This document shows, piece by piece, positions 301 to 19,530 of a stretch of DNA of 23,869 bases. Source of the stretch: Hydnum rufescens UP504 (Eukaryota; Basidiomycota; Agaricomycetes; Cantharellales; Hydnaceae); assembly GCA_014904985.1 (NCBI GenBank), contig MU128963.1, positions 1 through 23,869 on the forward strand, given 5' to 3'. The notes beneath the pieces are model-generated. The model made no database searches and was not told the origin of the DNA. It saw only the letters and a program-made list of their open reading frames with translations. Both the position numbers and the translations under genes were made by a program. The number at the start of each line of letters is the position of its first letter. The first letter of the stretch is position 1.

Positions 301-650
301 TACGAGATAGAACAGTCTAACTAAAATGCATATGTGATATTATGTAATACCCAACAGTCTAGGTAATCATACCTGTTGTTGCATAGGCTGCTCAAAGAGG
401 GCTGGGTCGCAAATTGATCACTGCCTCGCGGGTGTTAGTCAATCGTACCACAGGCGATCATCTTTAAACGCGGGCAATCCATCAGTTAGAGTGCACTCTT
501 GCATCGTGGCATCGACCTGCTGAAGCCAGCAGACATGCGCAAAGTGTATATTTTAGGTATGCCATCTCCTTACAGACCAGTAATTCGCGTGGAACAAAAC
601 TATTTGGCCCTCGCGACAGAGGCTACGTGCAACGGTATTCACAAATAGGT
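301..650. other. No gene recognised between flanking gene remnants
   Basis: This stretch may hold upstream exons of the minus-strand fragment or of the NACHT remnant. No open frame, repeat or RNA gene stands out by eye. Confidence 0.4.
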
Positions 651-1690
651 CCACCCCTCGATCAAGCTAGCATGGGGAGTCATCGCATCAGCGTATCAGG
701 TACGACCAGAATCAAGTTTTGTTTCTGCATGCTCTCTGACTGATGTTCCATTAGATCTCTTTTTCCCAGAGTGACCGAGATGCCAAAGTGATGGGTTTAG
801 TGCAGACTATGGAAGATAGCTGCTTCTTTGCCGATGAAACCGAGGAGTTGAAGAGACGCTCGGACAGAGATCAAGACATCATCAACCAAATACTGCGCCA
901 GGTAATGGAATGCGCGTATTTCATCCGGGACTATTTCAGGGACGAGTCCTTCAGTATGTGGGAATCGCATGTTCTCCTCCGTCCCAAGACTGATCACCCT
1001 GGCCACAGTCAAACGCGCTGTGAAGTACACAGTTTCTCTTGTGGACGCACGGATCGATACCTACAAGACGACCCTGAAGGCTCCGACAGAATCTGATTGA
1101 TCATGCCAACATGCAATGTACTGTCGTTGTGTATCGCGTCTTTGATGCCGTTCCTGAAGTTAGTAAGCTTCCATGTCTTCAGTCAATATCTGCATTCTGA
1201 GGTGCTCCACAGGGGACTTGCAAGTGCTCAGCGAACTAAAATACGCCCTGGAGGCCCATCACGATCTGGATAAAGAGTGCTTCCGAGGTACACGTACCGA
1301 GATCATCGACGCTATAGTGCGTTGGGCTGTTGGAGCGGATGCACTGTCATTTGATTCGAATGGCTCAGAAACATTGGGTTCTAATGACGTGTGTTTTGGT
1401 TGTGTGGCACGGCGGGCGTGGGCAAGTCCTCGATCCTTCGCTCATGCGCGAAACGCATTTCTGAACTCGGACGCAAGGGGTCGTACTATGGCTTCAACAA
1501 AAATAAACCCCTTGCAAACCTGACCAACCTGTTCAGCACAATCGCTCGAGACCTCGCTGAGCTCGATGACCCCACAGAAGCAGCGCCTTATCAATGCTGT
1601 CAAGCAAGACATCGCGATACGAACAAGCGATAACTGCAAATTGCAGTTCCGGCACTTCATCATTGCATCATTCGAGGATGATAAGCCCCG
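651..1690 (+). pseudogene. Decayed NACHT-type NTPase (NLR-like), N-terminal region and P-loop
   Basis: A short exon (IKLAWGVIASAYQ, ending at 699) is joined by a 55-nt intron (700-754, CTGAC branch motif) to LVQTMEDSCFF...ECAYFIRDYFRDESF. That is the conserved N-terminal region preceding NACHT domains in agaricomycete proteins. It is followed by the pre-NACHT motif CFRGTRTEIIDAIVRWA (near 1278-1328) and then by the Walker A motif GTAGVGKSS at 1406-1432. Past the P-loop, STIARDLAELDDP and KQRLINAVKQDIAIRTSDNCKLQF match the usual linker before Walker B. The reading frame changes near 960-1010, 1385-1394 and 1566-1575. Walker B, the helical domain and C-terminal repeats are not recognisable. Family members are thought to act in fungal non-self recognition or cell death. 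This copy should be non-functional. Family assignment is by motif recall. Confidence 0.72.
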
Positions 1691-2128
1691 CTGGGGAAGC
1701 CCACTCCATCGATCCATCGACCGGAGGATTTGCCAAGCAGCTGCAATAATTAGTATATACCACTGAGCCCCTAGAAAAGGCCGATAAGACGCGAAAGGCA
1801 TTGGTACACCAGCTTCAATTCTTTCTCTCGTCCTGGGATCTTCGCATGCCATATTACACACAGATACGGTCTACATGTCGAATTTAACTAGGCAAGGCAT
1901 TCGTGGCATATCTGTCTGTAACCGCCGGTCACACGCCAGTAGGTCACAGGGCACAGTGTCCAAATTTTGTCCCGAGGCTAATAGACTGATGAAGAAATGC
2001 AGCTTCCTCTTCGAAATAGCCGGGAATAGTCTTGTTCACCGTCAATGGGGGTGTGTCATTCCTCCAGGTACATCCTCTTTCCTTTCCTTTTTCATCACTC
2101 GTTCAAACAAGCTATACTGAACTGAAAG
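1691..2128 (+). other. Junction between two decayed genes, no intact gene
   Basis: The first part may be degraded downstream NACHT sequence. The second part (about 1990-2067) may be an upstream exon of the lactonase remnant, with a GT...AG stretch at 2068-2128 that would fit an intron. Neither is clear enough to annotate as a gene. Confidence 0.35.
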
Positions 2129-2688
2129 ATGCCTGTGCCATGTGCCAGTGCAACCCCCCCCCTAACGGCCTCTTTCAGATCGTCCTCGAACAAACTATTG
2201 GGAGGATACAATCCATCTCTCCCGCCATCGAAATCGAACTCGGGGCTCAAGTAACAGTCCACCCTTCCTCTTCATGACGACACGCGACGCTACGCCTGCG
2301 CACAAGGGCTATGTCGCTGCCTTTGCGCTCACATCGGATGGCCTCCTCTCATCCCGATCCTCGGCGTCCGATCCATATTCAACATTATATTCAGGTGAGT
2401 TGGAGGCGGATGTAGAGCCTCTGCACCGGTATGAGACGCCAACAAGTGGAGCGAAGCGAAGGCGAAGGCGATCGAGATTACGCCCTATTCAGTTTCCTAT
2501 ACCTTGGTCGAGACTGGGAATGGGGACATGGGGACGGTGATGGCATGGAGTGGATTGCACTCATGGATGACGAGCAGGGGTATGTGCATGTGCTCAAATA
2601 CAATGTGCAAAGCGAATCATTGAAAGGGCTTCGTCGTGTGCAGCTTGATGCAAGATCACTGGCTAGTCATGCTGTCATAGCTAGTTGA
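2129..2688 (+). pseudogene. Decayed seven-bladed propeller lactonase / carboxy-cis,cis-muconate cyclase-like gene
   Basis: Successive segments in changing frames match the C-terminal half of the fungal lactonase family (6-phosphogluconolactonase / carboxy-cis,cis-muconate cyclase-like). They are PPPNGLFQIVLEQT near 2149-2200, SPPFLFMTTRDATPAHKGYVAAFAL from about 2256, RYETPTSG near 2430-2455, and GMEWIALMDDEQGYVHVLKYN ending in SHAV at 2680. In the family these are the HPNG...YVVLEQT, FLFATTR...KGYV, TPTSGGKANA and final WVALTD...GWV blades. At least two frameshifts are needed, one near 2245-2256 and one after TPTSG, so the gene is broken. A working homologue would be a beta-propeller enzyme of aromatic-acid or sugar-lactone metabolism. 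The assignment rests on remembered motifs. Confidence 0.55.
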
Positions 2689-2760
2689 CTTGAATTATGA
2701 GCATATTCTTAGAAATTGGAACAGGTATCGAAGGATTTTGGGGCTATAGCATGGCATCGT

Positions 2761-4415
2761 TTAACAGAAACTCCATCTACACATGATGGACATCGAGGTT
2801 CTCTGATAAATTGCGTAGGCCCATGAAGCTAGCGACACAACAATTGCAGCCGGGAGGACGAATGGTGCTGAAGGCGGGAGAGCCCTAACCATAGCAGCCG
2901 CGCGACCGATAACCTTTATGGTAGTATCGACACTGAGATGTTTCCATATCATGCTTTGTCATTCAGGTCTACAGGATAGGACGATGCCCACAGACCCGGA
3001 GGATTAGGACGGTCGCTTGCAAGATCTGTAACGACATGCGTCATCAGGGCTCGAGATTCTGTCGACTTTAGACACTACACTCAAGAACTCGATTAGTCTG
3101 AACAATTGTCGCGACGACTGACGCAAGATGTGCCTGATGGTTTGGGTCATTAGAATTCCAGACGTTGACGATGTCATATGAATGACCCTAATGCATTCAT
3201 CAAGGCGGATGCCATTAAAGGTTCCAGAGAACATACAACCCCAATACTCTATAGAAATGAAAGGTGTGCATGAGGGGTGTTTCTCAAAACGCACGCACTG
3301 TCGCCCAACACTGCAAGATATCGCATAGAATAGGAACGCCAGACAAGTAATAGTGAACAGACTGGACTCACTGAATCGATGTTGAGATCTTTGTTCCGAG
3401 ACTACCTCTTTGAGCAACAGCGGAGAGCCAGCCTCCAAGATTCGGTTGCTCTGATTCAAAAGGAGCCCCGCCCGTCGTTGTCTGGGTTTTCGGACCCGCC
3501 TTTGTGGGAATATCCATGATAGAGGTCACGGTGAGGTTGATCGGTACTCGATCGTCGCTGGAAATCAGATTCTATCAGTGTGAGAATAGACGTCCAACCA
3601 ATAGCATAGACTAGAAACCTCGGTCCATGTATGTCGATTGCTTGCTACCACGTTGAGGGACTTCCCGCAGCTGGCTTTGATGGCTTCCATAGCAGTCTCT
3701 TTGGTCCAACGCTCCCATTCGACTATGTTAGTACCAACGGACCATGCGCGAACACTCTTCTTTCGCATCGCAAGCTGGTTATACTTCAGTGATTGGAAAT
3801 TGGGATACGGGATGATACGTTCCCAGCAGTCAGCATAGAGACACCAGTTTCAAGAGAACCTATCAATATACCCTTGTTGGCAAGGTCCTGCAAGAGTATC
3901 CCATCTCCTTGCTCAAAAACTTGACCTCCAGAAAACGGGGATCTCGCAGCACAACCTAGAGCCATGAGAAATCACAATTTCATGGGGGTACACTGGATAA
4001 AAGGCAATGTTACACGCACCAAATAGCATGGAGCCTGTCTTTGAGCTCCCTCCTGCGTTCCTCCTCTTGATGAACTCTTGGGTCGTTCGAAGATTCTCGA
4101 TATCTCCACCAACGAATCCTTGTGAATCGTGTAGAATGAGTCAATGGTTATCATCAGATGTGAGTTCATGATCAGTATCGTGTCGAGTGGCATGATCATC
4201 GGAGGTTCTCTATCACATGCATTGGGATCAAGTAGTGTGAGATCTCAGGAAGCAACGAGCACGCACAGTGAGGTTTTTGGCGCGGAATACTGCATTGATC
4301 AAAGAAGATTCTCCCACTCCTGACGGTGGATGTTCTACAGAGAGTGAGATGTACGGAAAGGATGCATGGCTCACTTCACCCACAACGAGAACACTAAACC
4401 TAACGACCCTACTTG
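2761..4415 (-). pseudogene. Decayed G-domain (AIG1/HSR1-like) GTPase with C-terminal hydrophobic segment
   Basis: Read from right to left, RFSVLVVG (about 4410-4385) is the first beta strand. GVGESSLINAVF (about 4326-4290) is the G1 loop, in which the essential Lys appears as Glu. LILHDSQGFVGGDIENLRTTQEFIKRR (G3 DxxG at 4131-4117) follows. After it come ERRRELKDRLHAIW, a frame-changed SGGQVFEQGDGILLQDL, and a helical stretch at 3768-3565 (SVRAWS...AIKASCGKSLNVVAS). A C-terminal part at 3459-3004 contains YWGCMFSGTFNG and LDECIRVIHM, and 2952-2761 holds the hydrophobic PFVLPAAIVVSLASWAYAIYQRT. This order matches agaricomycete 'G domain-containing' proteins. Several frame changes and the altered G1 make it a pseudogene. 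It is transcribed in the opposite direction to the NACHT and lactonase remnants and to the intact GTPase at 5288. Confidence 0.62.
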
Positions 4416-5287
4416 AGCACTGACAGGGGTATAAATGACGAACGTAGCATACCGAGAATCGTCTAGGAGAGAGTCGGCGGTGGGTCTGAGCCCCAGGGAG
4501 TCGTGCTATGCGCTGGTAGGATTTGTTGATGCTGATGGTTGAACTATCACAGTCTGGCTCGAAGTTTCAGTACCTGGATCAGTCGAATCCACAGTATAAG
4601 AACTAGCTGCGCACGATCCGGTGGCCCAAACGGGGAACTTGAAGAGCGGCATTATTGGCTAACAAATGGAATGCAGCGACGGTTTGATTGTAGGTGCATC
4701 CAGAAGACACGCTGAGGCCTCGTGCACAGTCTGATTCATCAGAATGGAAGGCGCCCGAACGAGAGGTGGATCCTCGCGAATCAGTCCCGTGAAGGGGAAT
4801 AACGACTACTGCCCCGATTGGTACGTGTTTGACCAGAATCCATCCTAGTCACTCAGACAAAATCAGGTTGTCCTGTGCACAGGAATAATCTGGGCAGCTC
4901 TCCATTGCTTTACAGCAATCAGTTGAATGTGCGAATGAGTGACCCAAAATGCATCAAATCTAGGTCCGGCAACATCCTTGACCATCAAAGTTGAGAGAAG
5001 ATGAAAGATGTACAACCGTTAGGAAGCAGATAACAACATGAGTCTCCGTGTTGCCTGGTTCGATGTTGCCAGATCAGACCGTGGTGGTAGGCCATACCTG
5101 TCCCCAGAAGGGCCCTATCTCGAGGAAGCGGCCATGGAGGTTTCTCGGATTAATCAAGTTGACATAACCGGAATGCTCTTGCTGCATGCCTGGCTTGTGA
5201 CATTTTGTAGCATGTGCACGAATGTATTTACAATAACATTGACACACCACCTACACCCACTGACGCCTTCTCTCTCCTCCGTCAACC
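4416..5287. other. Region between two divergently oriented GTPase genes
   Basis: No convincing gene is seen. A 92-codon frame beginning at 5038 has no recognisable motif. Its last part is antisense-like, low-complexity sequence overlapping the 5' leader of the downstream gene. A TATA-like GGTATAAATG lies at 4428-4437. The pyrimidine-rich stretch just before the ATG at 5288 is typical of fungal promoters and leaders. This interval should hold the promoter of the GTPase at 5288. Confidence 0.4.
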
Positions 5288-6623
5288 ATGTGGAAATCTA
5301 TCGGCAAGCATTTTAAGCTCCCCAACAAACTCTCCAAGAAAGAAGTCCCCGATGGAACCAAGGCCAGCAGGCGCTTCAGGGTCCTTATACTTGGACCGGC
5401 GAACGCGGGAAAGACCACTCTGCTCGAACGACTAACTGACAGCCCTGCTGGCGCGAGTATTGTGACCCGGAACGGAAAACGTGTAATTACTACAGATGTT
5501 CGAGCTCAGTAGAGATGCTGTTCTAATTCATCCCTTTATCTCTCAGATCAAGGAGGTCCCCAGGGGATATGATCAAGTAAGACCCATCCTATCAAAGGCA
5601 CGCTGTGGTTACTTACATTTTCATACCATCTAGCGAGGGATCCACACCATCGGTGATGAAATCACTTTCAAATCAAACCCTGATCTCGTTTTCCACGACT
5701 CTGGTGGTTTCGAGGCAGGAGGGGTCGAGGAGGTCGAGGCCGTCTGGCAATTTATTCGAAAGCGCTCGTTAGCTTCACCTTCACAGCAGTTGCATGCAAT
5801 TTGGTGTGTTTACATGTTGGTTCATACACCTTCACACTTGGACTCATTGATTGCTCCAGGCTCTGCATCCCAACCGATAATGACAGGCCCTTTGGATTCC
5901 TGCAGTCAGGCTTTTTCTCCGAGCCCACAGGATCAGGTATGTCCCATGAGTTGCAGCATTCAATCCTTTCTCTTATGCACTGGTCCATGTGTATGTTCAG
6001 TGCCTGTGATCGGGATTTTCACCAAGCTGGATGGAAGAAAGACGAAAATTATGACTGAAGTTCTCGGCCCTGCTCCTGATCCATCCGATTTCCTCAATTG
6101 TGTCCCGGAGGTGGAGCAGAAAGTGGCTGAATTTGTTAATGGACTCGAGACACAATTTCGGAACCAGCAATACCCACCTGCTGGTTTTCTCAGGGTTGGA
6201 AGTATGTATATTCTATCTAAGCACCAATTTTTCACAGTTAATTTTGGCTTATAGAGATGCATGAAGTTACTGAGCAGAGCATAGCATCATGCACCCAACT
6301 TCTTCGAGTCACTATGGATTCGCTTCCTGATGAGACCCAGAGATCATTGCTTTACCTCACGGTTTGGAAAAGAAACCGCCGGATTCATACCATATATGTT
6401 TTACAGCGGTGAGTGTGGATGTCCAATAGATTGATAGTGACTAACAGTCATGTTTATCTCATAGAGTCCTTGGTGGTGAAGTTGAAGGTACTGTCTCAAG
6501 CTGTATCCATGAGATGATGGTACAATTTGACTATGTACAGGGAACATTATGATGAAAGTTCCAGGACCTGGGGAAGATGAAGAATCCCAGTTATGTGCAG
6601 ATAAAGGGTTCAGGATTCTCATG
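5288..6623 (+). CDS. G-domain P-loop GTPase, first eight exons
   Basis: Proposed exons are 5288-5482, 5547-5576, 5634-5803, 5860-5936, 6001-6201, 6255-6408, 6465-6487 and 6541-6623, which give 311 codons in one frame with no stop. All seven introns are GT-AG and 53-64 nt long. Several carry good branch motifs (CTAAT in the first, TGACTAAC in the sixth). G1 is GPANAGKTT near residue 37, G3 is HDSGG in KSNPDLVFHDSGGFEAGG, and G4 is TKLD in VPVIGIFTKLDG. LHAIWLCIPTDNDRPF between them is typical of the agaricomycete G-domain family. The first donor (GTAATT at 5483) was chosen because it keeps frame; GTAGAG at 5509 would not. The family likely acts as nucleotide-dependent switches, with unknown partners. 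Exon 8 ends in phase 0 at GTGAGT, leading straight into the intron-like array. Exons 7 and 8 contain no CpG, unlike exons 1-6. Confidence 0.75.
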
Positions 6624-9600
6624 GTGAGTGACTGTACAAGTTGTGAGCAATGTATTGATTGTCTCATGCTGCAACTGCAACAACTGGTGATACATCATTG
6701 GTTTGTTGGATGGCATTGACAACATAGGAGGTATAGCCACAGACTAACATGTGGTCCACAATGACTGACTTACATGTTTCTTTGTGGCATTTATAACATA
6801 GTTGGTCAGTCTGGATCTCCAAATTTCATACATGGTGTCTGGCTCATGTATTTTTTGGTGCCACTGGGAATGCAGTGTGTGAGTGGATCTCCCATGATTG
6901 GAGATATGGTCATTCCCTGATACAGCTTTTGCTGGAATTGACAATGCAGGGGGTGAGTTTGCATCTCTTAGTTAATGTGAGGTTGCTGGGTGTATATCTA
7001 TTGGTGGCATGGATAACATAGCATGTGAGTATGCATCACCCACCTTTGGATCCACACTGTCCCTGGCTGATATATCCCTTTGTGACATTGATACTGTAGG
7101 AGGTAAGACTGCATCTCACAATTTGGTATGTAGTCACTACCTGATGCAACATTTGGTGGTATGAACAACATAGAATGTGGGTTGGCTTCCTTTACTATTT
7201 GATGTGTGATGACTGACCCATAGCTCTTCTGGTGGCATCAACAACACAGGATGTAGGTCTGGATGTCTTGGGATTTGATGCTTAGTTGCTGACTGACAAA
7301 CCTTGTGTTGGCATTCACAATGTAGTATGTGAGTGTGGATTCAATATGAGGTCCATGGCTGATATATTATTGGATGGGATGGGTAAAATAGGAAGTAAGT
7401 CCATATCCCTGAGAATTCATGGGTGGTTTCTGGCCAGTGCATCATTTGGTTGCATGGATAATGTAGTATGTATGTCAGAATTTCCTATAAGTTAGCATGT
7501 GTTTGATGTGTGGCTGGCTAATACATTGTTTGGTGACACAGATAATGCAGGATGTAAGTCTGGATTGCCTCCACCTGAATGCACTGTCACTGTATGACAC
7601 ATCACTGGATTATATCAACAATCAAGAATGTGGGCACCCATGCAATTTTCTGTGATAATTGGCTGATCCATCTTCTGGTGGTATTCACCATGTAGCTGGT
7701 GGGCAGCTTTTTTACAATTTCAACCACAGTCACTGACTGATACATTAATGGGTGGTATTCACAATGCAGGGTGTGAGTCTGCATCCCCCACTATCATTAG
7801 TTGCTAGCTGATATATGCTTCAATGCCATCAACAATGTAGGATGTAAGTCTGGTTCTCCTCAATGCAATACACAAGTGCCAGCTGACATTTCTTTGTCTG
7901 ACATGAACAATGTAGGAAGTAAGACAGGATGTCCCACAATTTAATGCATGGTCACTATCTGATACATTGTTTGGTCCCATGAAAAATGTAGCATGTAAGC
8001 TCAGATCTCTTGTAATCAATGTGGGATCACTGGCCAATATATTCTTTGTTAACATTAATAATGTAGCATGTAAGTTCTGATCCCTGCCACCTTGCTGCAC
8101 AATCACTGGATGACATACAGTATTGCTGGATGACATTGACAACCTAGCTAGTAAGCCTGGCTTCATTTTGATTCAGTATGTGGTGATTGGGTGACTCACC
8201 AATGGGATCAACAATGTAGCTGGTGGGCCTATGACCTTGCACAATTTGATGCAGGAATTGCTGGATGATTCATCATGTGCTGGCATTGACAATGTAGGAA
8301 GTGAGTTGCATGTCCTATCTGGTGTATTGTTGGCTGATACATTACCTGGGGGTGTCAAAAATGTAGGAGGTATGTTGAGATCTCAGGAAATATGATGTGA
8401 CATCACTGATGCATTGCTTGGTGGCATGGTTGATGCAAGGTGGTAAGTTTTCATTTCCCACCATCCATTGCATGGCCCTTGGTTGATATACCTTGGGGTT
8501 ACATTGTCATGACAGTATGTAAGTCCAGATCTCATACTGATCAGTGCGTGATTTCTGCCTGATTCATCTTCTGGTATCTGCAACACAGAGGGTAGGTCTG
8601 GAGCTTTGGATTGCATACCAGACTGATTCATCTATTGGTGGTGTTGATAACATAGAGAGTAAGATGAGGTCTGTTGGAATTTAACACAGGGTGCCTAGCT
8701 GATAGATTGGTTGGCTGCTTGAACACTGTAGGATGTAAGCCCATATCACCCCCTACCTGAGGAGTGGTTAGAAGTTGACACATCTTTGGGTGGGATTGAT
8801 AATGTAGGAAGTAAGTGTGGATATCCTTGAATTTGATGTATTGTCCCTTGGTGATTCATCTTTTGGTGCTGTTGACAACCTAGGGTGTAAGTGTTGATGT
8901 GTTTGCATTCAATTCATTTTCCCTTGCTGATTCATCTTTTGGTGCCATTGACAACATAGCTTGTAAGTGTGGATGTGTTCAAATTCAATGCATTGTCCCT
9001 TGCTGATTCATCTTTTGGTGCTGTTGACAACATAGCTTGTAAGTGTGGCTGTGTTTGAATTCAACCCACTGTCCCTTGCTGATTCATCTCTTGGTGCCAT
9101 TGACAACATAGGATGTAAGTGTGGATATGTTAGAAGTCAATACATTGTCCCTTGCTGATTAATCTGTTGGTGGCATTGACAACAAAGGGTGTAAGTGTGG
9201 ATGTGTTTGAATTCAATGCATTCTCCCTTGCTGATTCATCTTTTGGTGCCATTGACAACATAGCCTGTAAGTGTGGATGTGTTAGAATTCAATGCATTCC
9301 CCCTCACTGAGTCATCTGTTGGTGGCATTGACAACATAGGATGTAAGTGTGGATGTGTTAGAATCCAATCCATTGTCCCTTGCTGATTCATATTTGGTGA
9401 CATTGACAACTTAGCATGTAAGGATGGATGTGTTAGGATTCAATGCATTGTCCTTTGCTGATTCATCTTTTGATGGCATTGGAAACATAGGATGTAGGTG
9501 TGGATGTGTTGGAGTTCAATGCACTGTCCCTTGCTGATGCATCTTTGGTGGCATTGACAACATAGGCTGTAAGTGTGGATGTGTTTGAATGCAATGCATT

Positions 9601-12352
9601 GTCCCTTGCTGATCCATCTTTGGTGGCATTGATAATATAGGGTGTAAGTGTGGATGTATTTGAATTCAATGCATTTTCCCTTGCTGATTCATCTTTTGGT
9701 GCCATTGACAACATAGGATGTAAGTGTGGATGTTCAAATTCAGTGCATTGCCCATTGCTGATTCATCTTTTGGTGGTATTGACAACATAGGGTGTGAGTG
9801 TGGATGTGTTAGAATTCAATGCACTGTCTTTTGCTAATTCAGCTTTTGGTGGCATTGACAACATAGCTTGTAAGTGTGGATGTGTTCAAATTCAATGCAT
9901 TGTCCCATGCTGATTTATCTTTTGGTGGCATTGACAACACAGCATGTAAGTGTGGATGTGTTTGAACTGAATGCATTGTCCCTTTCTGATTCATCTTTTG
10001 GTGGCATTGACATAGCTTGTAAGTGTGGATGTGTTCAAATTCAATGCATTTTCCCTTGCTGATTCATCATTGATGGAATTGACAATGTAGCTTGTAAGTG
10101 TGGATGTGTTCAAATTCAATGCATTTTCCCTTGCTGATTCATCTTTGATGGAATTGACAATGTAGCTTGTAAGTGTGGATGTGTTCAAATTCAATGCATT
10201 TTCCCTTGCTGATTCATCTTTTGGTGCCATTGACAATGTAGGATGTAAGTGGATGTGTTCAAATTCAGTGCATTGGCCATTGCTGATTCATCTTTTGGTG
10301 GTATTGACAACATAGGGTGTGAGTGTGGATGTGTTCAAATTCAACACATTTTCCCTTGCTGATTCATCTCTTGGTGGCATTGTCAACATAGGGTGTAAGT
10401 GTGGATGTGTTCAAATTCAATGCATTGCCATTTGCTGATTCATCTTTGGTTGCATTGACAACACAGAATGTAAGTGTGGATGTGTTATAATTCAATGCAT
10501 TGTCCCTTGTTGATTCATCTTTGGTGGCATTGACAACATAGGGTGTATGTGTGGATGTGTTCAAATATAATGCATTTTCCCTTGCTAATTCATCTTTTGG
10601 TGGCATTAACAATACAGTTTGTAAGTCTAGATGTGTTGGAATTCAATACATTTTCCCTTGCTGATTCATCTTTTGGCACCATTGACAACATAGCTTGTAA
10701 GTGTGGATGTGTTTGAATTCAATGCATTTTCCCTTGCTGATTCATCTTTTGGTGCCATTGACAATGTAGCATGTAAGCATGTGGATGTGTTCAAATTCAA
10801 TGCATCACCCCTTGCTGATTCATCTTTTGGTGGTATTGACAACGTAGGGTGTAAGTGTGGATGTGTTTGAATTCAATGCATTGTCCCTTGCTGATTCATC
10901 TTTTGGTGGCATTGACAACATAGGGTGTAAGTGTGGATGTGTTTGAATTCAATGCATTTTCCCTTGCTGATTCATCTCTTGGTGGCATTGTCAACATAGC
11001 CTGTAAGTGTGGATGTGTTCAAATCCAATGCATTGTCCCTTGCTGATTCATATTTTGGTGCCATTGACAACATAGCGTGTAAGTGTGGATGTGTTAGACT
11101 TCAATGTATTGCCCCTTGCTGATTCATCTTTTCATACCATTGACAACATAGCTTGTAAGTGTGGATGTGTTTGAATTCAATGCATTGTCCCTTGGTGATT
11201 CATCTTTTGGTGCCATTGACAACATAGTATGTAAGTGTGGATGTGTGTAAATTCAATGCATTGTCCCTTGGTGATTCATCTTTTGGTGCCATTGACAACA
11301 TAGTATGTAAGTGTGGATGTGTTTGAATTCAATGTGTTGTCCCTTGCTGATTCATCTTTTGGTGCCATTGAAAACATAGCATGTAAGTGTGGATATGTTT
11401 GAATTCAATGCATTCTCCCTTGCTGATTCATCTTTTGGTGGCATTGACAACATAGGATGTAAGTGTGGATGTGTTAGAAGTCAATGCATTGTCCCTTGCT
11501 GATTAATCTATTGCCATTGACAACATAGGATGTAAGTATGGATGTGTTAGAATTCAATGCATTGTCCCTTACTGATTCCTATTTGGTTCCATTGACAACA
11601 TAGCATGTAAGTATGGATGTGTTGGAATTCAATGCATTGTCCCATGTTGATTCATCTTTTGGTGCCATTGAAAACATAGCATGTAAGTGTGGATGTGTTA
11701 GAATTCAACCCACTGTTCCTTGCTTATTTATCTTTTGGTGGCATTGACAACATAGCTTGTAAGTGTGGATGTGTTAGAATTCAATCCATTGTTCCTTGCT
11801 GATTCATCTTTTGGTGGCATTGACAACATAGGATGTAAGTGTGGATGTGTTAGAATTCAATGCATTTTCCCTTGCTGATTCATCTTTTGGTGGCATTAAC
11901 AACATAGTGTGTAGGCATGGATGTTTTGTAACTGAAAGCATTGTCCTCACTAACCCATCTTCTGATGGTCTTGACAATGTAGGATGTAAGTCCAGATGTC
12001 CTGCAATTAAATGCATCACCCCTACTTATTCCTTTGTTGGTGTCATTCCCAATGCAGCCAGTATGTTCAGATGCCTTAGTATTCAATGTATTATTGCTTC
12101 CTGATGTCCCACCTGGTGGTTTTGCCCACATAGGAGGTCTGCCCACATCTCTCACTCCTTCATTCATGATCTCTCAATCACTTTCTTGGTGGCATGTATG
12201 CCTTAGGATGTATGTCTACATATCTTAATATTCAGTCTGTGGTCCCTGGCTCATACACATTTTTCTGATATTTACAATTCAGCTTGTGAGTAATGCAATT
12301 ATATTCTGCTCTCCAACTGCACTCCTTACAATTTCATTTGTCACAGGATAAT
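6624..12352 (+). repeat. Tandem array of 76 intron-like units separated by single-codon (3-nt) exon candidates
   Basis: The modal unit is 76 nt: a 73-nt GT...AG segment plus 3 nt. The consensus begins GTAAGTGTGGATGT, contains CTGATTCATC about 30 nt before the end, and finishes TTGACAACATAG. First bases of the 3-nt intervals: 6728, 6802, 6876, 6950, 7022, 7100, 7174, 7250, 7326, 7392, 7467, 7551, 7627, 7696, 7770, 7841, 7916, 7992, 8067, 8148, 8220, 8298, 8367, 8440, 8516, 8589, 8656, 8732, 8818, 8884, 8960, 9036, 9112, 9188, 9264, 9340, 9415, 9491, 9566, 9641, 9717, 9791, 9867, 9943, 10016, 10091, 10166, 10242, 10316, 10392, 10467, 10542, 10618, 10694, 10770, 10848, 10924, 11000, 11076, 11152, 11228, 11304, 11380, 11456, 11529, 11604, 11680, 11756, 11832, 11908, 11983, 12058, 12134, 12207, 12283, and a 6-nt one at 12347. 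Every interval is preceded by AG (AAG at 7626, 8439 and 9187, otherwise YAG) and followed by GT. Whether these splice is inference. Confidence 0.9.
8821..11907 (+). repeat. Homogenised core of the intron-like array
   Basis: About 41 units here are highly alike, mostly exactly 73 nt plus 3. Units before 8821 and after 11911 keep only the splice-like signals and scattered similarity. A young, homogenised core with older diverged edges is the usual outcome of unequal crossing-over or gene conversion in tandem arrays. The 3-nt interval is mostly GAT, CTT, GGT or CAT in the core; the last T belongs to the TGTAAGT block shared by most units. Confidence 0.85.
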
Positions 12353-12495
12353 GTAAGTCACATCTAATGTGGGAACCCCAAATCAGTCTATCGCATTGCA
12401 ATATTAATCATTACACACCTGTGCCTTCATCCTATCTGGTATATATTGTCAATCCTCCCTTCCAACCTTATCCCTATCTCACATGGGCTTATTAG
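12353..12495 (+). other. Candidate last intron after the array
   Basis: The 6-nt exon candidate at 12347-12352 is followed by GTAAGT at 12353. The next AG at a reasonable distance with a pyrimidine-rich approach is ATTAG at 12491-12495, giving a 143-nt intron, longer than the others. An earlier AG near 12388 would give an intron of under 40 nt. The choice is tentative. Confidence 0.3.
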
Positions 12496-12591
12496 GTGCT
12501 CAAATATGCAGGGGAGCAAAGCCTGTGTGCCCTTCCTCAAACTGTTGGTCAGTTTAGGTTTTCATTAATTTTCCACCTCCAGGGCATCTAA
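12496..12591 (+). other. Candidate terminal exon of the array-bearing GTPase gene
   Basis: If splicing uses ATTAG at 12495, the phase-0 frame carried from 5288 through every 3-nt interval stays open here for 31 codons (VLKYAGEQSLCALPQTV...) and stops at TAA 12589-12591. The predicted protein would then be 311 + 77 + 31 = 419 residues. This tail does not resemble the C terminus I expect for this GTPase family. The frame match has a one-in-three chance of being accidental, so this is only a hypothesis. Confidence 0.25.
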
Positions 12592-12626
12592 GCATTCATT
12601 CTAGCAATCACAGTCTCTCTCATCCA

Positions 12627-12899
12627 ATGATAATTTTCAATATCTGGTCTTTATTTGTTGTCAGTGTTGAGACTAATTATAAGTGCACAGGAGATTGCTT
12701 ATCTTGGCTTGTTAAACTAGTGGTCATCCTTTGGATTCGGGGGAGAAGGAATGTAGATTTGCCTGATGAACACAAAACAAAGCATACTGCTAGGTCTATC
12801 CAGGAGCAGATCAAGCATGATGAAGGTTTCCAGGGATCTGCTTCATTCAATATTCCAAGGAAACTTGCTAAGCTCATTGATGAATATACAGCATTGTAG
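12627..12899 (+). CDS. Short hypothetical reading frame, unrecognised
   Basis: A 90-codon frame ends at TAG 12897. Its second half (RRNVDLPDEHKTKHTARSIQEQIKHDEG then FNIPRKLAKLIDEYTAL) is hydrophilic and has a protein-like composition. The first half contains a hydrophobic stretch, SWLVKLVVILWIRG. It could be part of a larger spliced gene or the true 3' end of the array-bearing gene through other splice sites. No family is recognised, and the region is AT-rich and CpG-poor, so chance is possible. Confidence 0.2.
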   Translation: MIIFNIWSLFVVSVETNYKCTGDCLSWLVKLVVILWIRGRRNVDLPDEHKTKHTARSIQEQIKHDEGFQGSASFNIPRKLAKLIDEYTAL

Positions 12900-14006
12900 G
12901 CATTGTGTGCAATCCCTGTATCAACAGTGATGTCCTCCAATTTCATTGTGCTCAATCCTCATCTCTGACAGGCTTTATAATCAATTGACATCATCTGTCT
13001 CTCAAGTGGAGATTGTAAGCTGGAGTTGTAGGTGATGAATTGTAACAACATTACATGTAATACATCAAGGTTGAAATTGTGGAGATAAGACCCAAAGTCA
13101 TATGGGCTGCAATTGCAGATCTGTGGATCCATGCAACAGTGCAATTCCACCCACTGTAAGCAGGATGATTATGAATCAATCCAACTACAGTCTGTGTCAT
13201 TAAGTTGAGGACAAAGGAGGGGATCACAGAATTAATCTGAGTGTTCAGGTTCAAGTGGAGTAGGTCTTTTGGAACAGGGGGAAATTACTGTGAGCCAACA
13301 AAGCTCAAGCAATTAAGTGAAGATGTGTATTCTTGTCAAATTACCACACCCTAAGGATCTCCTCTTGAGGCCTTAGTCTCACTGTAGTTAGAATTTGCTT
13401 TTTGCAGTGAGAAATCACCCAGGGACCAACAGCAATTCAAAGAGCTTCAAACTGGAGGGAGGGGGAAGACTACTTGATTTTGTGCCTCATGCACCTAATA
13501 TACATTCCAGACCACAATTCAATTGATGACAAAAAATTTGGAGATAAGGGAAGCATAAAGAAAAAGAAATGAAGTCAAAATCTTCAAAACTGGTGGAGAT
13601 ATTCATAAATCAAGTTACACAAAAGGAGAATTAACCCTTTACAAGCCATTCCTCCTTTGAAACTGGACAGATTCCCTTAATAAATGGCAGAATAGGTCAC
13701 CCTGAGCCTCATCTTCTTCAGACAGGTGGATGGAACCAGATTGTTGTTTGTAATGGTGGACCTAAGGGAGATGGCCTGGCAACTGAGGAGGGATAAGGGA
13801 AAGTATAAATATTGGGGGGAAACAATTGGCAGCAGCAGCAGGGGAAAAAGGGAGTGGGAACCAAAAATGGAAGTCGTCATGTGTGATGGTGGGGGAGTGG
13901 ATGATCAGAAAGGAGACATTCTTCAGGCAGGTCAACCACATTGACTACCTATGTTAGGTATCAAATCTGTGCCATGAGTTGGTACCTAAGTAGGTCCTAC
14001 AATACT
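12900..14006. other. AT-rich, CpG-poor sequence without recognisable genes
   Basis: Short frames occur on both strands but none carries a motif or persuasive codon structure. No RNA gene or tandem repeat is seen. There is a purine-rich stretch around 13780-13870. Confidence 0.5.
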
Positions 14007-14116
14007 GGGGCCCCACTAGGGCCCAAATCCAAAGTTAAAGAGCAGTTTCAATGCAATGGAGCCCAAATGGGGCCCAAGTGGACACATTCAAACTGTCTGC
14101 ACCAATGGGGCCCAAA
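14007..14116. repeat. Cluster of GGGCCCAA motifs
   Basis: Four GGGCCC palindromes, three of them followed by AA, occur within about 110 bp (GGGGCCCC, AGGGCCCAAAT, TGGGGCCCAAGTG, TGGGGCCCAAATG), together with a related GGAGCCCAAATG. This lies immediately outside the left arm of the foldback. It may be a diverged short tandem repeat; its function is unknown. Confidence 0.45.
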
Positions 14117-14180
14117 TGTGTGAACTTGTCCCAAATCCACAGTGGCACAAGCAGAACCCAGATCTCTATTTTGTTCTAAG

Positions 14181-14880
14181 TTATTGCTGTTTTGGAAATA
14201 GTTAGCCAAAATTGTTTCTGAAAAAAAAAAGCCCAAAAAGGCATGAAAACTGTAACACTCCTTATGCTGCCAATATAGACCTGTTTGCTTCAAAAACAGA
14301 TGCATTGGACTCATGTGATTTCATTCTACCTCACAAGCCTAAGTATGAGTCATTCTGGCCTGTTTTGCTGTTTTTGCTTGCTTGGGCCTGTAACCTCTCC
14401 ACCATTCCTAATATGGTTCAGAATCCTTTCATTTTTAAATATGTTTTTCCTGCCCTCATAGTCAAGCAGAATCTACAATCTCAGAATTTTGGGAATTTAT
14501 TTCATATTCCAGTGAAGTAGAAGCACCTGCCATAAGTCTATTTCAGTTCACTAAAATATGAAATAAATTCCTAAAATTCTGAGATTGCAGATTCTGCTAG
14601 ACTATGAGCACAGGAACAACATATTCAAAAAGGAAAGGATTTTGAGCCATATTGGGAACAGTGGAGAGATTACAGGCCTGTGCAAGCAAAACAGAAAAAC
14701 AGGCCAGAATGACTTGTACTTAGGCTTGTAAGGTAGAATACAATCACACAAATCCAATGCATCTGTTTTTGAAGTGAACAGGTCTATATTGGTGGTGTAA
14801 AGAGCATTACAGTTTCATGCCATTTTTGGGAATTTTTTTTTGGAAACAGTTTTGGCTGACTATTTCCAAAACAGCAATAA
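14181..14880. repeat. 700-bp foldback: long inverted repeat with short loop
   Basis: The left arm is about 14181-14516 and the right arm about 14547-14880, with a 30-nt loop. The outermost 30 bases pair with a single mismatch (TTATTGCTGTTTTGG... against ...CCAAAACAGCAATAA). Pairing is maintained through the arms to ...GTGAA / TTCAC... at the loop. Position sums stay near 29061-29063, so the arms are almost indel-free overall. A transcript would fold into a roughly 335-bp hairpin. No transposase and no obvious target-site duplication are seen next to the arms. It could be a foldback or MITE-type transposon, or a hairpin source of small RNAs. Confidence 0.85.
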
Positions 14881-15960
14881 ACCTACTGTAGTTTACAAGA
14901 TACAAGATATCACATGCAAACAGAACAATTCATGCATCATCCCCAACTAACTCCTCAAGAGCATTAAGAGCAGCTAGGAATGCAATGTATTGCAGCACAG
15001 GAGCATCCTCTAATTCCCCATCTTCATCCCATCCAAGTTTGCAGCATCTGAGACCCTATCAGCAGCCTTGCCTGTCAGTGAGTTTGCCCCAGGGGACACA
15101 GGCTCATGCAGTGTCTGAATCCCACCATGACAAAGGGGAGGAGGCCACTCAGGAAGATTCATCCAGCCCATCTAGCCATCACTGTAATATAGTGTGTTAC
15201 ATAAGGGAGTTTGGACTCAAAAGTCATGTATATATGGCAGATGCCAGGATTGAATAAGTAACTCTTTTGCCTGGTATAGAAGAAGGGTTGGGAGCTCCAA
15301 TGACTGTCAAATAAAAATCTGGTTTGGCCAGTGTGTAGATGGGAGACTGTATCTCTGTTGTTATTCATTGGGTTGGTTCACTTCAATGGTTGATCACACT
15401 CTGCAAGATGTGTATGGTGTTCAGTGGAGAATAGGAAGGGATATGGACTAGCTGTAGTCAATGATATATCATTTGGGATGCTTGTAGAAAGGCTTATATG
15501 TCTGGGATGCTTGTGGAAAGGCTTACACATCATTCGTGTTGTGTTGGTCTGTTTACTGATATTTGTGTATTCTTGTTTATGTTCTCCTGGTCAAAATGCG
15601 GATATCTGTGGGTTATAGACTGGTCAGTGCTTGGTTAGTCTTGTTAGTATGTTTCTTTCTTCTTTCTTCAAAACCTGATATGTATTTCATTATGCTTACT
15701 TTTCCTTGGATGTCCAGCAACTCTAACCTTAGGTCCTGCAACTATCCTTGGCTTTAGTGATTCACGTAGAGGGCTACCAGTGGCTTTGTCTCAACAACCT
15801 TGAAGATGACTTAGCTCCAGATGGCTTATAGATAGACTGTTCTTTAGAGGCAAGCAGAAAAGTTGACAGTGGTTGACAGTGATGATTTCCAGAGAGGAGA
15901 TGATTTTGTGTGGGGATACAGGAAATCTACCAGCTTTTATACCTTTCTGAAGGTGGCTGT
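14881..15960. other. Non-genic stretch with a small tandem duplication
   Basis: A 90-codon Ser/Pro/His-rich frame at 14985-15257 and hydrophobic frames at 15424-15757 have no recognisable motif and are probably chance. Near 15475-15532 a 29-bp unit (GGGATGCTTGTAGAAAGGCT and relatives) occurs twice in tandem. Confidence 0.4.
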
Positions 15961-15987
15961 GTTTAAGAAATATGACTCCCTCATGGG

Positions 15988-16075
15988 TGAGTCATATGTG
16001 AGTCATATGTGAGTCATAGGTGAGAACAAAAGAAAAATAACAAGATGATGTCATAATGTGGTCATAGCTGAGTCA
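15988..16075 (+). promoter_or_regulatory. Cluster of TGAGTCA (Gcn4/AP-1-type) sites at 11-bp spacing
   Basis: TGAGTCA occurs at 15988, 15999 and 16010, exactly 11 bp or about one helical turn apart, and again at 16069. This heptamer is the consensus site of Gcn4/CPC1/AP-1 bZIP factors. TGATGTCA-like, CRE-related words follow (near 16045, 16110, 16120 and 16160). No gene lies directly beside the cluster, so it may simply be a tandem repeat that happens to carry the motif. Confidence 0.4.
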
Positions 16076-16083
16076 TGCATAAG

Positions 16084-16169
16084 GAGAACAAAAGGAATCA
16101 TGAGGGGGTGATGTCATAGTGATGTCATTCATAAAGAGAACAAAAGGAATCATGAGGGGGGTGATGTCA
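16084..16169 (+). repeat. Two copies of a roughly 33-bp motif, about 52 bp apart
   Basis: GAGAACAAAAGGAATCATGA followed by a G-run and TGATGTCA occurs at 16084-16116 and 16136-16169. A weaker relative is at 16021-16053. Together with the TGAGTCA cluster this makes a small satellite-like patch. Confidence 0.6.
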
Positions 16170-16269
16170 CCAATTTGCTGAGCATGTGGAATGCTTGGAG
16201 CATGAGGTCACTGACCATGTGGAGCATTCTGGAGGTGAAATGAAAGGATATCTCCAGTTTTTGGAGATT

Positions 16270-16408
16270 AATTTGAGCATAGTCCAATGGTTAAGGTGTT
16301 TTGTTGCTGGTTGATAATGGGGACAAGTGCATGGGATGGGATTCGATGCAGAAACAGCAGTTTGCATCTGTAATAGACGTTCTTGGTATCATTCGATGCG
16401 GACTTTTA
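16270..16408 (+). repeat. tRNA-like head of a possible SINE
   Basis: TAGTCCAATGGTTAAGG at 16280-16296 resembles a tRNA D-arm / A box, and GGATTCGATGC at 16339-16349 resembles a B box (GGTTCRANNCC). The spacing is about 50 bp, usual for RNA polymerase III internal promoters. A TTTT run at about 16404-16407 could terminate transcription. A clean cloverleaf cannot be drawn, so this is not a functional tRNA. It is best read as the decayed head of a tRNA-derived SINE. Confidence 0.4.
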
Positions 16409-16795
16409 ACAGCTTTCAGGGTGCGGTGGTTCCGAGCAGATCCGATGTAAACTGACAGAGAAATTCATTTTTTACTGATGGGTGTTGATTCTAATAGTAA
16501 TATCGCTCTGTAGAGTTCAGTTTTGATCTGTTCTTCACGTGCTCGATACTGTCAGATGCGAATTTATTATATATTTCTAGGTGTGGTTGTTCCAAGAGGA
16601 TTGAATGCGAACTGACGGAGAAGTTCATTTTTTACTGGAAATCCTGGATTTTGATAGTAAAATTGGCCTGGAGAGTGCAGTTTTGGTCCATTTGACTTGT
16701 GTTTGGTGCCATTAGAAAGGTGTAAATCGTAGCCTTCTAAGTGTTATATGGGCGTACCTCTCCGATCAAAACTGACGGAGTTATAGAATGAATTT
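16378..16795. repeat. Triplicated 160-bp repeat
   Basis: The anchor ACTGAC(A/G)GAG recurs at 16451, 16611 and 16771, exactly 160 bp apart. Copies 1 and 2 also share the sequence before it (GTGGTTCC...GATG / GTTCCAAG...GAATG) and the GTTCATTTTTTACTG and AGTTTTG(A/G)TC blocks after it. Copy 3 is partial and more diverged. Local CpG content is higher than in the DNA on either side, suggesting a different age or origin. It directly follows the tRNA-like head and could be the body of the same element. Confidence 0.6.
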
Positions 16796-17732
16796 GATTT
16801 CCACACATAGCTGTAATGAATTTCATAATTGGTCATGTGATTGTCCAAAGGCTGGGAGTGGTGTGATTTCACGTTTTCTGATACTGGATGTTTTTATCTT
16901 CCACACTGGACCTCTATGCCTAGCGAGAACCATGAACCTTTGATTCTGTCTCTGCCTCTACTCATTCTATTGGGCTATCTGGCTGGCTTATCTAGTGGCC
17001 ATTAACTACTAGTCTTCCCTGGATCTTGGAGTTGCACCTACAGACCCAAATAGGGAAACAGTGAGTAGAACCCTGTTCTTCTTGCTGACCTGCCCTTCTC
17101 TCCTTAGGTAGTGACTGTGCCACTTGGCCAGTCACTACATCATACCTCTTCACCATTATCCCCATTCCCTCACATCCTTTTCTCCTGTGCTCAGGGCGAA
17201 GACAGTGCTTAGCCCTGTGTGCAGCTCCTCCACCCAAAGCCAGTGCTAAGGGTGGTGTGATTACCCTTTCACCTTCTTATCCCCTTATCCCCTCCCATCT
17301 GGCTCCCAACCTGTCAACTTTGCTTTGTCCAAGTACAACAACAAATGCCCTCCTGAATCTGGGAGGCATTTCATTACAATCACTCCCAAGAATTGCTGAT
17401 GAATGCCTCTGCCAAGCCTCCACCAAATCATACAGGTGATACAACTCTAGTAATGCAAAGAACTTCACCTGTGCATCTATCAGAATGAGGCTAATTCAGT
17501 CAACCCCTATCATGACAGCCAAATGTAGATTACATACCATGAGAAATAGCATATGTGCACTGTGTGGCAGAACATTAGGTGATAAACCATGTGCATAAGT
17601 TAGAGAATTCAAGTTGTGATCTATGTCAAACTAGCTCCTATTATTGACTTAGCAGTTGGGGACCTCTAAGGTCCCTTTTGGCATAGTAAAAGCCAACCTA
17701 AGAGGTCAAAAGTAGTGTCCCTATAGTGGTAT
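16796..17732. other. Non-genic stretch, nothing recognised
   Basis: Frames at 16992-17237 and 17257-17468 are short and motif-free. CpG is scarce. No repeats are obvious apart from the tract that begins at 17733. Confidence 0.45.
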
Positions 17733-17766
17733 AATAGGCAATCCAAATCTGGTTCTGGCAGACACC
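17733..17766 (+). repeat. 34-nt near-exact match to the copia pol gene downstream
   Basis: Bases 17733-17766 match 21936-21969 at 33 of 34 positions. The only difference is A at 17760 against G at 21963, a CpG-to-CpA change. The downstream copy lies in the integrase-RT linker of the copia element. Neither flank extends the match. Confidence 0.75.
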
Positions 17767-17980
17767 CACCTAATGCACCCTCAAAAAGGTACCTCTTAGG
17801 TGGGTTCTGGTTGCATTGGCCTTTGACCTAAGAGGTGATTTTTACATAGGCATGTCTAGGCAGTGTCTAAAGGTGTTCAAAAGATGAAAAATTTCTAAGT
17901 CCCTATAATAGGTGCACCTATCTGTGCCTGCCACAGCCACCACTCCCAGGCTTTTAACTATTTGATAGGCATTCTGGGGT

Positions 17981-18182
17981 TGATTTAGGCATGCCTAAAT
18001 CAGTTGTGTCTAATGATGTCTAGAGCTTAATTATTGACTTTGAATTGAAGAGGCCTATCCAGGGTTGATTTAGACATGCCTAAATCAGTGATGTCTAGTG
18101 ATGTGTAGAGTCAGGTGCTGCTCCAGGGGTTTTACAATGACTTGATGGACACCCTGCAGTTGATTTAGGCATGCCTAAATCA
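17981..18182. repeat. Three copies of a 22-bp palindrome in a roughly 90-bp tandem repeat
   Basis: A perfect 22-bp palindrome with half-site TGATTTAGGCA lies at 17981-18002 and 18161-18182. A one-base variant (TTTAGAC in the left half) is at 18066-18087. Each copy is followed by TGTCTAG-type words and preceded by similar sequence, so the repeat unit is about 85-95 bp. It ends about 70 bp before the 5' LTR. Confidence 0.7.
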
Positions 18183-18253
18183 GCTGTGTCTAGTCATGTC
18201 TAGAGCTTGCTATATCTCATTAGAGTTTCCTGGTGTGTCCATGAGGGCTTAGT

Positions 18254-18575
18254 TGTTGGAGGGCAGCTGGATATGGTATAATGACCTGATGACTTTGTCG
18301 GTGTTGATCGCCCATTTCGTTTATTGTTTCCACCTACTATTCTTGATACCCGGCATTGCTGATTCCTTATATATTACTACATGAGCATTCCGCGCTCCCT
18401 CAGTTCTTTTATCAGAGACTGAGGTTAGCCCTTTTTCTATTCTCTCTTCAATAGTATAGTACCTTACCTGAACCCACTGTAGTTCCGTCGTTCTAGGTAC
18501 TTTATCCAAATCTGAGTTCTTTTATCAGAGACTGAGTTCCGTCGTTCTAGTATATATACGAGTACTCCACCAACA
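18254..18575 (+). repeat. 5' LTR of the copia element
   Basis: It starts TGTTGGAGGGCAG and is proposed to end ACCAACA, giving TG...CA and 322 bp. The first 192 bp align without gaps to the 3' LTR at 23678. TATATATT near 18370 and TATATATAC near 18551 are TATA candidates. A 54-bp partial internal duplication is visible: AGTTCCGTCGTTCTAG occurs at 18481 and 18535. TTCTTTTATCAGAGACTGAG also occurs twice (about 18404 and 18517). The right border is inferred, because the matching part of the 3' LTR is not in the window. Confidence 0.85.
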
Positions 18576-18592
18576 GGTTATGGGCCCATTGG
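18576..18592 (+). promoter_or_regulatory. Candidate primer-binding site
   Basis: GGTTATGGGCCCATTGG directly follows the inferred LTR end, where reverse transcription of a copia element is primed by a tRNA. I did not match it to a specific tRNA. Confidence 0.4.
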
Positions 18593-18634
18593 TCCTCTAA
18601 TTACTAGAACAATACACAGTCCTTCGAACTCACA

Positions 18635-19530
18635 ATGTCCTCAATGTCCAACTCTGACAAACCATCCTCTCGGCTCTATGACATACCAAAGCTCCTGAAT
18701 GACGGTTCCAACTACACCTTGTGAAAATTCTGTATCAGTCAGGTTCTGGAAGCTCGCGGCCTTGCTGGCTACATATCTGGAGTGGAGCAGAAACCAAATG
18801 GATCTGATGCTAAGGCATTGGAGAACTGGACAGTAAAGGACCGGGATGCTCACCTTCAGGTCACGCTCACCCTGGAGGATGTTCCCCTACTTGGTGTAAT
18901 CGACCTCATCGAGTCGAAAGCCATATGGGATGCCCTTTTGTCACGCTATGATGGAAAAGGTCTTCAGAGTGTTGCCTATCTCATGACTAAGGTATTCCGA
19001 AGTCAAATGAGCGACTCTCAAGACCTCCAGATGCAAATAAATGAGCTACGCACCTATGCGAGCAGACTCAGCTCACTTGGCCATCCATTAGATGACAAAA
19101 TGTTCACGGTCACGATAATCCTATCCCTCCCATCCTCATATTCCACTCTCCAAACTGTCATCTCTGCAACCTCGGGCGATAGACTCAACTCCCAGGAAGT
19201 TATCAGTACTATCCTCACTGAAGAACAGCGGAGACATGAGACTGGTGACAAAGCTTTAAAAGCACGCACCGGAAAAACCGGCAAGTCGAACAAGCCAAAA
19301 GGCAACCAACCGATGTGCTCTAATTGCAAGAAGCTGGGCCACACCAAGGAGAAGTGCTGGGCACCTGGAGGTGGTGCCGAGAAGGACAAGGGAAAGACAA
19401 TTGAGAAGGCGAAGGATGAGAAGGCGAAAGTTGCGGACACAAGAGATGAGAGCGACACCCTCGAGATCTTTATCGCCGACATTAGTTCCCATGCTTACAA
19501 GGCCTTTGCGGATAACAAACATAACAATAC
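18635..19530 (+). pseudogene. gag: copia gag with zinc knuckle, one in-frame stop
   Basis: The ATG at 18635 opens a frame reading MSSMSNSDKPSSRLYDIPKL then LNDGSNYTL. It meets TGA at 18722-18724 and continues KFCISQVLEARGLAGYI and on past 19530. Gag of this family normally has Trp or another residue at that point, so the TGA is a lesion. The UBN2-type capsid region (LGVIDLIESKAIWDALLSRYDG, then LRTYASRLSSLGHPLDDKMF) is intact in order. The CCHC knuckle CSNCKKLGHTKEKC begins at 19316 (C-x2-C-x4-H-x4-C, all four ligands present). A Lys/Glu-rich linker follows. The product would package the RNA in virus-like particles. Confidence 0.82.

Follow-up and report, generated by a model that had tools for sequence, protein, structure and literature searches.

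The DNA analysed here (hereafter the window) is a stretch of 23,869 nucleotides (nt) from the basidiomycete Hydnum rufescens UP504 (contig MU128963.1, positions 1 to 23,869 of the forward strand), and its central element is a gene in which a predicted GTPase is followed by a long array of introns enclosing exons of one codon each. The gene model runs from 5288 to 12899 on the + strand and comprises 87 exons and 86 introns, all of them GT-AG, in a single frame of 477 amino acids: exons 1-8 form the GTPase part, exons 9-83 consist of one codon each, exon 84 reads GATAAT, and exons 85-87 make up a tail that ends at the stop codon TAG at 12899. The 3-nt exons represent 75 of the 87 exons but carry only 225 of the 1434 coding nt. 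The features of the gene are listed here; P0046 is an open reading frame (ORF) of JGI source from a sister gene.

5288-5482, 5547-5576, 5634-5803, 5860-5936, + strand: exons 1-4 of the GTPase part, which has eight ordinary exons (gene model)
6001-6201, 6255-6408, 6465-6487, 6541-6623, + strand: exons 5-8 of the GTPase part, ending in phase 0
6624..12346, + strand: array of 76 GT-AG introns and 75 single-codon exons (site listing, chain finder, gene model)
6728..8810, + strand: first block, 29 single-codon exons reading ELCGHENDYEYDNLGDEHHLLEEVYRRDE, with diverged introns; peptide common to paralogs
8884..11985, + strand: variable block, 42 single-codon exons, 42/42 NNT, with similar introns, mostly of 73 nt
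12058..12285, + strand: final single-codon exons P-E-D-L, common to paralogs
12347..12352, + strand: 6-nt exon GATAAT (D-N); P0046 reads PEDL-DN-GSKAC
12512..12547, + strand: tail exon GSKACVPFLKLL (gene model; P0046)
12605..12659, + strand: tail exon in which a short hydrophobic stretch begins (FQYLVFIC..) (gene model; P0046)
12721..12899, + strand: last exon, stop TAG (gene model; 51 genome matches including itself)

Organisation of the array and of the predicted protein

A preliminary description of this DNA had proposed 76 consecutive units of the form AG-NNN-GT. The 76 consecutive GT-AG introns stand, and the exons between them, each of exactly 3 nt, number 75. Likewise, the intron sizes then given (61-83 nt) hold for the mode of 73 nt (37 of the 76 introns) and for the first intron of 104 nt, while the range of the others is 61-81 nt. 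When AG-NNN-GT sites are listed over the window, a chain appears with steps mostly of 66-81 nt and some extra chance sites between them. The donor reads GTRAG in 60 and the acceptor YAG in 73 of the 76 introns, and a CTRAY-type branch-site candidate with 26-33 nt after its A is present in 54, compared with 3 of 76 for CTRAY in a control stretch 46-71 nt before the intron end. The array does begin at GTPase exon 8, which ends at 6623 in phase 0, and the 6-nt exon GATAAT (12347-12352) directly follows the last array intron; the predicted insert of up to 231 nt is exact (75 x 3 + 6). The gene extends beyond 12352, with three further exons up to the stop at 12899.

An intron-chain finder used without any exon-length preference returned 76 introns from the array, with 74 of 75 exons of 3 nt; the lone other exon reflects a misplaced intron at the array start, and the count is 75 of 75 once the first introns are corrected by hand. 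In 100 dinucleotide shuffles of the array, at most 8 introns were chained and 11 of 209 exons were 3 nt long, and elsewhere in the window the finder gave two stretches with 2 and 3 chained introns. The array middle is a tandem repeat of period 76. Introns 2-29, however, have a mean mutual identity of only 58% (51% with intron bodies shuffled), so that the 3-nt spacing is not simply a product of copy identity.

By eye, the N-terminus MWKSIGKHFKLPNK runs into a P-loop GTPase, and the window's predicted protein contains the P-loop GPANAGKTT, in accordance with the pattern GxxxxGKT. A Pfam scan of the GTPase protein gave no match above cut-offs. A Foldseek search with the predicted model of the GTPase part of a relative, P0005 (mean predicted local distance difference test score 73), placed IRG-type GTPases first, as weak matches with a template modelling score of about 0.47. 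The hydrophobic stretch that begins in the tail exon at 12605-12659 is a possible membrane anchor, as judged by eye. A terminal exon D-N-V-S-H-I-stop right after the array was also considered, a reading that had been favoured by the conservation of D/Y/H-N-V-S-H-I-stop in seven paralogs; it was rejected, as P0046 joins the 6-nt exon to three more exons. A second variable repeat lies near the N-terminus (EEVPDEEVPD, TKKSP/TKESR units) and differs in length among paralogs (GTPase exon 1 of L031-L050; P0006, P0008, P0012).

Related loci and joined codons in sister genes

Over the H. rufescens UP504 assembly (63.2 Mb; loci are named by contig, such as C164 or C6), the array query gave 637 matches and GTPase exon 5 gave 51, which correspond to 49 places after two overlapping second matches were dropped. 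At 42 of these 49 places, the window included, GTPase exon 5 is followed by a tail-exon match on the same strand 2.0-12.9 kb downstream, and 7 are unpaired. In a protein database search, the GTPase relatives in H. rufescens are annotated as 'G domain-containing protein'. Genome-wide, the paired-site pattern was found 1067 times with a 3-nt exon, twice with 4 nt and never with 6 nt, as against 0, 2 and 0 in reversed controls; a search for this pattern in viral contigs gave no match. Fourteen array loci were read, window included, with internal exons chained automatically: 761 of the 835 internal exons are 3 nt long, and the longest chain has 93 introns (C221). Read in order, the 3-nt exons of the paralogs give a peptide that is related at its start (in several, ELYGHENDYEYKAPDNLD..EH.LLEEVYRRD), is specific to each locus in its middle and often closes with PEDL, as in C164, C213, C6, C221, C166 and P0046. 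Among the paralogs read, C96 is the most diverged, with 46% identity in GTPase exon 5; its 16 chained introns, on average 61% identical, enclose 15 exons, all of 3 nt, and a block of near-identical units is absent. This short and diverged array suggests that the single-codon structure predates the expansion. The DNA upstream of the GTPase gene is common to several paralogous loci, and at C252:60101-61393 array units and an array end lie on the + strand beside or within a minus-strand family member, as an inverted partial copy.

Loss of the AG-NNN-GT arrangement in relatives had been named beforehand as a sign against the array. The comparison was run among paralogs, by counting the cells of an alignment of ten of them, and the arrangement is retained: not one of 2778 GT cells and not one of 2796 AG cells differs, compared with 6.6% for donor positions 3-6, 9.4% for branch-site candidates and 14.2% for intron bodies. 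Moreover, 309 of 320 exon cells keep 3 nt, 10 being without the whole codon and 1 partial. First-block codons are invariant in 11 of 31 cases, a modest excess over the 19% of intronic windows. The GTPase exons do show constraint, with a median ratio of nonsynonymous to synonymous substitution rates of 0.42 (15 pairs of 6 intact models out of 11).

Further evidence comes from JGI-source ORFs, which were found by a predicted-protein search and by a profile search with predicted tails. Eight of them (P0025 and P0040-P0046; contigs of 0.9-1.6 kb) carry array residues without interruption, attached to GTPase exon 8 and, in a single ORF, to tail exons. The joined peptide of P0025 and P0040-P0045 is homologous to the first block of the window. 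For P0045, 51 of 51 residues equal the product predicted for loci C339 and C123 when introns 1-4 are spliced out and intron 5 stays in. In the best-fitting splicing intermediates, 8 introns are removed for P0044, 9 for P0043, 11 for P0042 (which fits best only narrowly) and 28 for P0025. Translation of the first bases of the following intron gives a peptide like the ORF end in P0043 and P0025 and identical to it in P0044, with little agreement beyond the first residue in P0042. P0046 begins in a retained upstream intron, after which 42 single-codon residues, among them a variable block homologous to that of the window, run on into the 6-nt exon and every tail exon; its differences from locus C6 include the gain and the loss of whole codons in the variable block. 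P0040 and P0041 are identical over the tail, and a search with the tail region of P0025 found only P0025 itself. In P0029, a further JGI ORF, introns are translated without a break, an indication that software splicing did not produce these ORFs; the contigs behind them would be RNA or complementary DNA.

We consider, with a probability of roughly 0.88, that the array is the coding middle of one gene, in which 75 codons join the predicted GTPase to the tail and are spliced and translated within a protein of 477 amino acids. A gene with about 76 one-codon exons, as first suggested, is thus favoured, since the paralogs spell a related peptide and the JGI ORFs hold joined residues. Splicing of the array is strongly supported; we infer its translation and function, and the window's own locus presumably makes its full product. 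Some 86 introns would be removed to yield one protein, whose middle part would vary codon by codon. Each intron would be recognised across itself by means of its own donor, CTRAY-like branch site and acceptor (intron definition), a mode that tolerates a 3-nt exon. Because their sites are only 3 nt apart, neighbouring introns would be removed one after the other, and sequential removal as proposed in the preliminary description is plausible to this extent; a strict 5'-to-3' order is unsupported, since P0046 keeps an upstream intron while all those downstream in the ORF are spliced. As all single-codon exons are in phase 0, the gain, loss or skipping of a unit would alter the protein by whole residues.

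The base composition bears on a different explanation. The CpG observed/expected ratio is 0.013 in the array, 0.10 in 12353-18300 (0.48 in 16001-17000) and 0.86 in 1-5300; within the window, CpG depletion thus persists as far as about 18 kb and is less marked in a single kilobase, at 16-17 kb. Over the 14 loci, the array introns hold 29 CpG in 61,553 nt, and CpG occurs in 17 of 761 codons, 8 of these in C221. Such depletion suggests methylation. It is also seen in silenced repeats and, together with the period-76 tandem repeat of the array middle, it would fit a minisatellite within one 5.7-kb intron, the splice-like motifs being fortuitous and exon 8 being joined across the whole array. Indeed, annotated models stop before the array or omit it, and P0012 joins GFKILM to DYVSVDSI. 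However, nothing would keep intronic DNA in a 3-nt phase, and introns as diverged as introns 2-29 go together with 1 partial exon cell in 320 and with no change of GT or AG in ten paralogs. For the sister genes, this explanation is contradicted by the joined codons of P0045 and P0046. A single long intron with a minisatellite was therefore rejected, on the invariant splice sites of the aligned paralogs and the codons joined in JGI ORFs, and we regard it as the least probable of the explanations considered.

The variable block and the weight of the evidence

Diversity was determined column by column for units with consensus-like 73-nt introns (76 columns per unit; 253 units, 11 loci). In 8 of the 11 loci, the two columns with the highest variability among the 76 are codon positions 1 and 2, and the mean diversity of these positions is, depending on the locus, 4- to 54-fold that of the introns. 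Position 3 is T in 244 of the 253 units, and no isoleucine or threonine codon occurs among the 253 variable-block codons. Among 41 pairs of units in which both flanking introns are identical (146 nt), the codon differs in 30, with 22 differences at position 1, 28 at position 2 and none at position 3; for intronic 3-nt windows under a similar condition, 77 of 1231 pairs differ, and at most 30% for any single window. The middle units look multiplied by duplication, and the variable block might be a codon-by-codon cassette that diversifies part of the predicted GTPase. The pattern might have arisen through strong diversifying selection combined with recombination or through a process of targeted mutation; selection alone would hardly be expected to leave position 3 nearly silent. 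Unit duplication and change at codon positions 1-2 would together serve the variation of a recognition-type protein segment. A more far-reaching idea, which we put forward only as tentative and rather doubtful, is that of a diversity system with codon resolution: about 50 GTPase genes in which each residue of the recognition segment is its own spliced cassette, with introns kept alike by recombination and only codon positions 1-2 diversified, as a natural stop-free NNT library, possibly by targeted mutation and possibly for recognition of self and non-self or of pathogens.

The numerous middle-array introns, similar to identical, could also be those of an introner-like or self-multiplying intron that inserts in tandem, the codons being by-products. 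Nevertheless, the codon between copies is hypervariable, unlike a repeated target site, the exons spell a related peptide at both array ends, and among the matches listed (C2, C4, C6 and C9, out of 1067), the paired 3-nt sites lie in loci with a GTPase or tail-exon match. We find this origin very improbable. The preliminary description had offered an intron-multiplying repeat kept splice-competent as its second option, which is not needed, though the middle units look duplicated.

Several observations weigh against a coding array. In the first block, 12-15% of the cells at exon positions differ, a share like that of intron bodies, and only 5 of 32 single-step codon variants are synonymous, with 26% expected. 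Contrary to expectation, the first block shows no purifying selection on amino acids, which speaks against strong constraint there. The GTPase models are broken in 5 of 11 loci after automatic transfer of boundaries. The internal exons that are not 3 nt long are concentrated in five loci (59 of 74 in C164, C65, C2, C339 and C123), where they are a sizeable minority; inspection covered three of these five, and exons of 2 nt (CT, GT, TT, AT) occur in the most homogeneous stretches of C164, C65 and C123 (L031, L032, L038, L046), where the assembly consensus has perhaps lost the variable middle base. No stop triplet occurs among 684 3-nt exons of 12 loci, which says little because 509 of these 684 codons end in T. 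The count of 30 differing codons in 41 pairs needs better assemblies, because 35 of the pairs come from C164, C123 and C65, with their suspected consensus errors, and it is in C164, C2 and C123 that codon diversity exceeds intron diversity by the largest factors (38, 51 and 54); the column ranking of codon positions 1-2 holds also in loci other than C164, C123 and C65. Among the JGI-source ORFs found, none is from the window's own locus, and exon 8 is joined to the first codons in 0 of 26 named H. rufescens proteins. Moreover, 5 of the 8 tail-bearing ORFs run into a retained intron and stop, at five different places, and P0020 keeps array intron 1, so that splicing is often incomplete in this sample. 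P0040 and P0041, after 29 joined array residues, end in SRYHID, which is not the translation of an intron starting with GT and is perhaps due to an alternative acceptor.

These retained introns, at five different places, and the lack of codon-level constraint in the first block would also agree with an array that is spliced mainly for regulation, partial splicing giving truncated GTPases of graded length and the codons mattering little. In contrast, it is codon positions 1-2 that vary while the introns are mostly spared, the 3' end represented by P0046 is complete, and the ORFs with retained introns may be unfinished nuclear RNA. We consider such a regulatory role unlikely and retain the spliced and translated array as the best explanation.

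If full splicing and translation are confirmed, the locus would be a sharp natural test of the minimum size for consecutive exons and of splice-site exclusivity, with donor and acceptor 3 nt apart 75 times in succession. It would also offer a route to protein variation: whole residues would come and go by recombination between units, with the frame preserved. The excess diversity at codon positions 1-2 makes selection and targeted mutation directly testable against each other, and the named proteins illustrate that gene prediction misses the array. A gene family with codon-sized exons, joined codons in sister genes and a codon that varies between like introns are all additions to the preliminary description.

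As regards the neighbouring DNA, a Copia-like retrotransposon frame was recognised by eye at 18254-23869, with two 192-nt direct repeats at its ends that are 96% identical, the second reaching the window end. A large inverted repeat (arm pairs of 68, 145 and 154 nt, 83-87% complementary) lies at 14181-14880 in the CpG-poor DNA downstream of the gene, and the stretch 1200-2700 resembles, by eye, a NACHT/P-loop gene.

Comparison with known systems

To our knowledge, no known gene spells out an entire segment of its protein with one codon in each exon, and a full-text literature search, mostly without subscription papers, gave no array of single-codon exons among the results listed. In zero-length-exon recursive splicing, an acceptor is directly followed by a donor; here 3 nt lie between acceptor and donor in 75 of 75 window cases. 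Neither do the units have the structure of stwintrons, in which the donor, branch site or acceptor of an outer intron is split by an inner one, as each window unit has its own donor and acceptor. Stwintrons of fungi are likewise similar multi-copy introns, but nested according to their descriptions (PMC8469720, PMC9024468), and the introner-like elements of fungi are similar introns in many copies but, as described, in unrelated genes (PMC4457414). In contrast to both, the introns here, in the loci read, are consecutive within one gene family, with codons between them.

The H. rufescens genome was presented as one of the first two from ectomycorrhizal Cantharellales (PMC7550596), and the word 'intron' does not occur in the main text of that paper. 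Functional microexons were undescribed in filamentous fungi before a 2024 study, by its own account, and its microexon has 20 nt (PMC11121469). Exons of 1-3 nt can be spliced, as reported for a single-nucleotide exon of Arabidopsis APC11 (PMC4674806) and a 3-bp micro-exon of Drosophila homothorax (PMC7392893), but these are isolated, whereas here 75 stand in tandem. The bicycle genes of aphids are also a large and fast-evolving family recognised by its exon-intron structure; they are putative effectors of insects, and the available part of their description mentions no single-codon array (PMC9168663).

The nearest analogues are the MEG and SmPoMuc genes of schistosomes. The MEGs of Schistosoma mansoni are likewise a multigene family of variable proteins with many tiny exons, mostly a multiple of three, that are hard to annotate automatically; their exons are given as 3-81 bp or 6-81 bp, mostly 15 bp, the introns reach 5 kb and the products are secreted (PMC10526429). 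No homology to schistosome MEGs was found in a protein search, whose 39 matches, among the 7999 best word-sharing candidates that were scored, are all fungal where the organism is named. Compared with the MEGs as described there, the H. rufescens gene has 75 consecutive one-codon exons, introns of about 73 nt, tandem middle units and a GTPase at the start of the protein. In SmPoMuc of S. mansoni, an exon and its flanking introns are repeated in tandem and give rise to a variable protein region, as is proposed here; its 27-bp exon lies in a repeat of about 1 kb, with up to 20 per gene and up to about 55 nine-residue repeats in the proteins (PMC2576457). Set against that description, the unit in H. 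rufescens is one codon per about 76 bp, up to 93 introns are chained (C221), and the codon itself is hypervariable.

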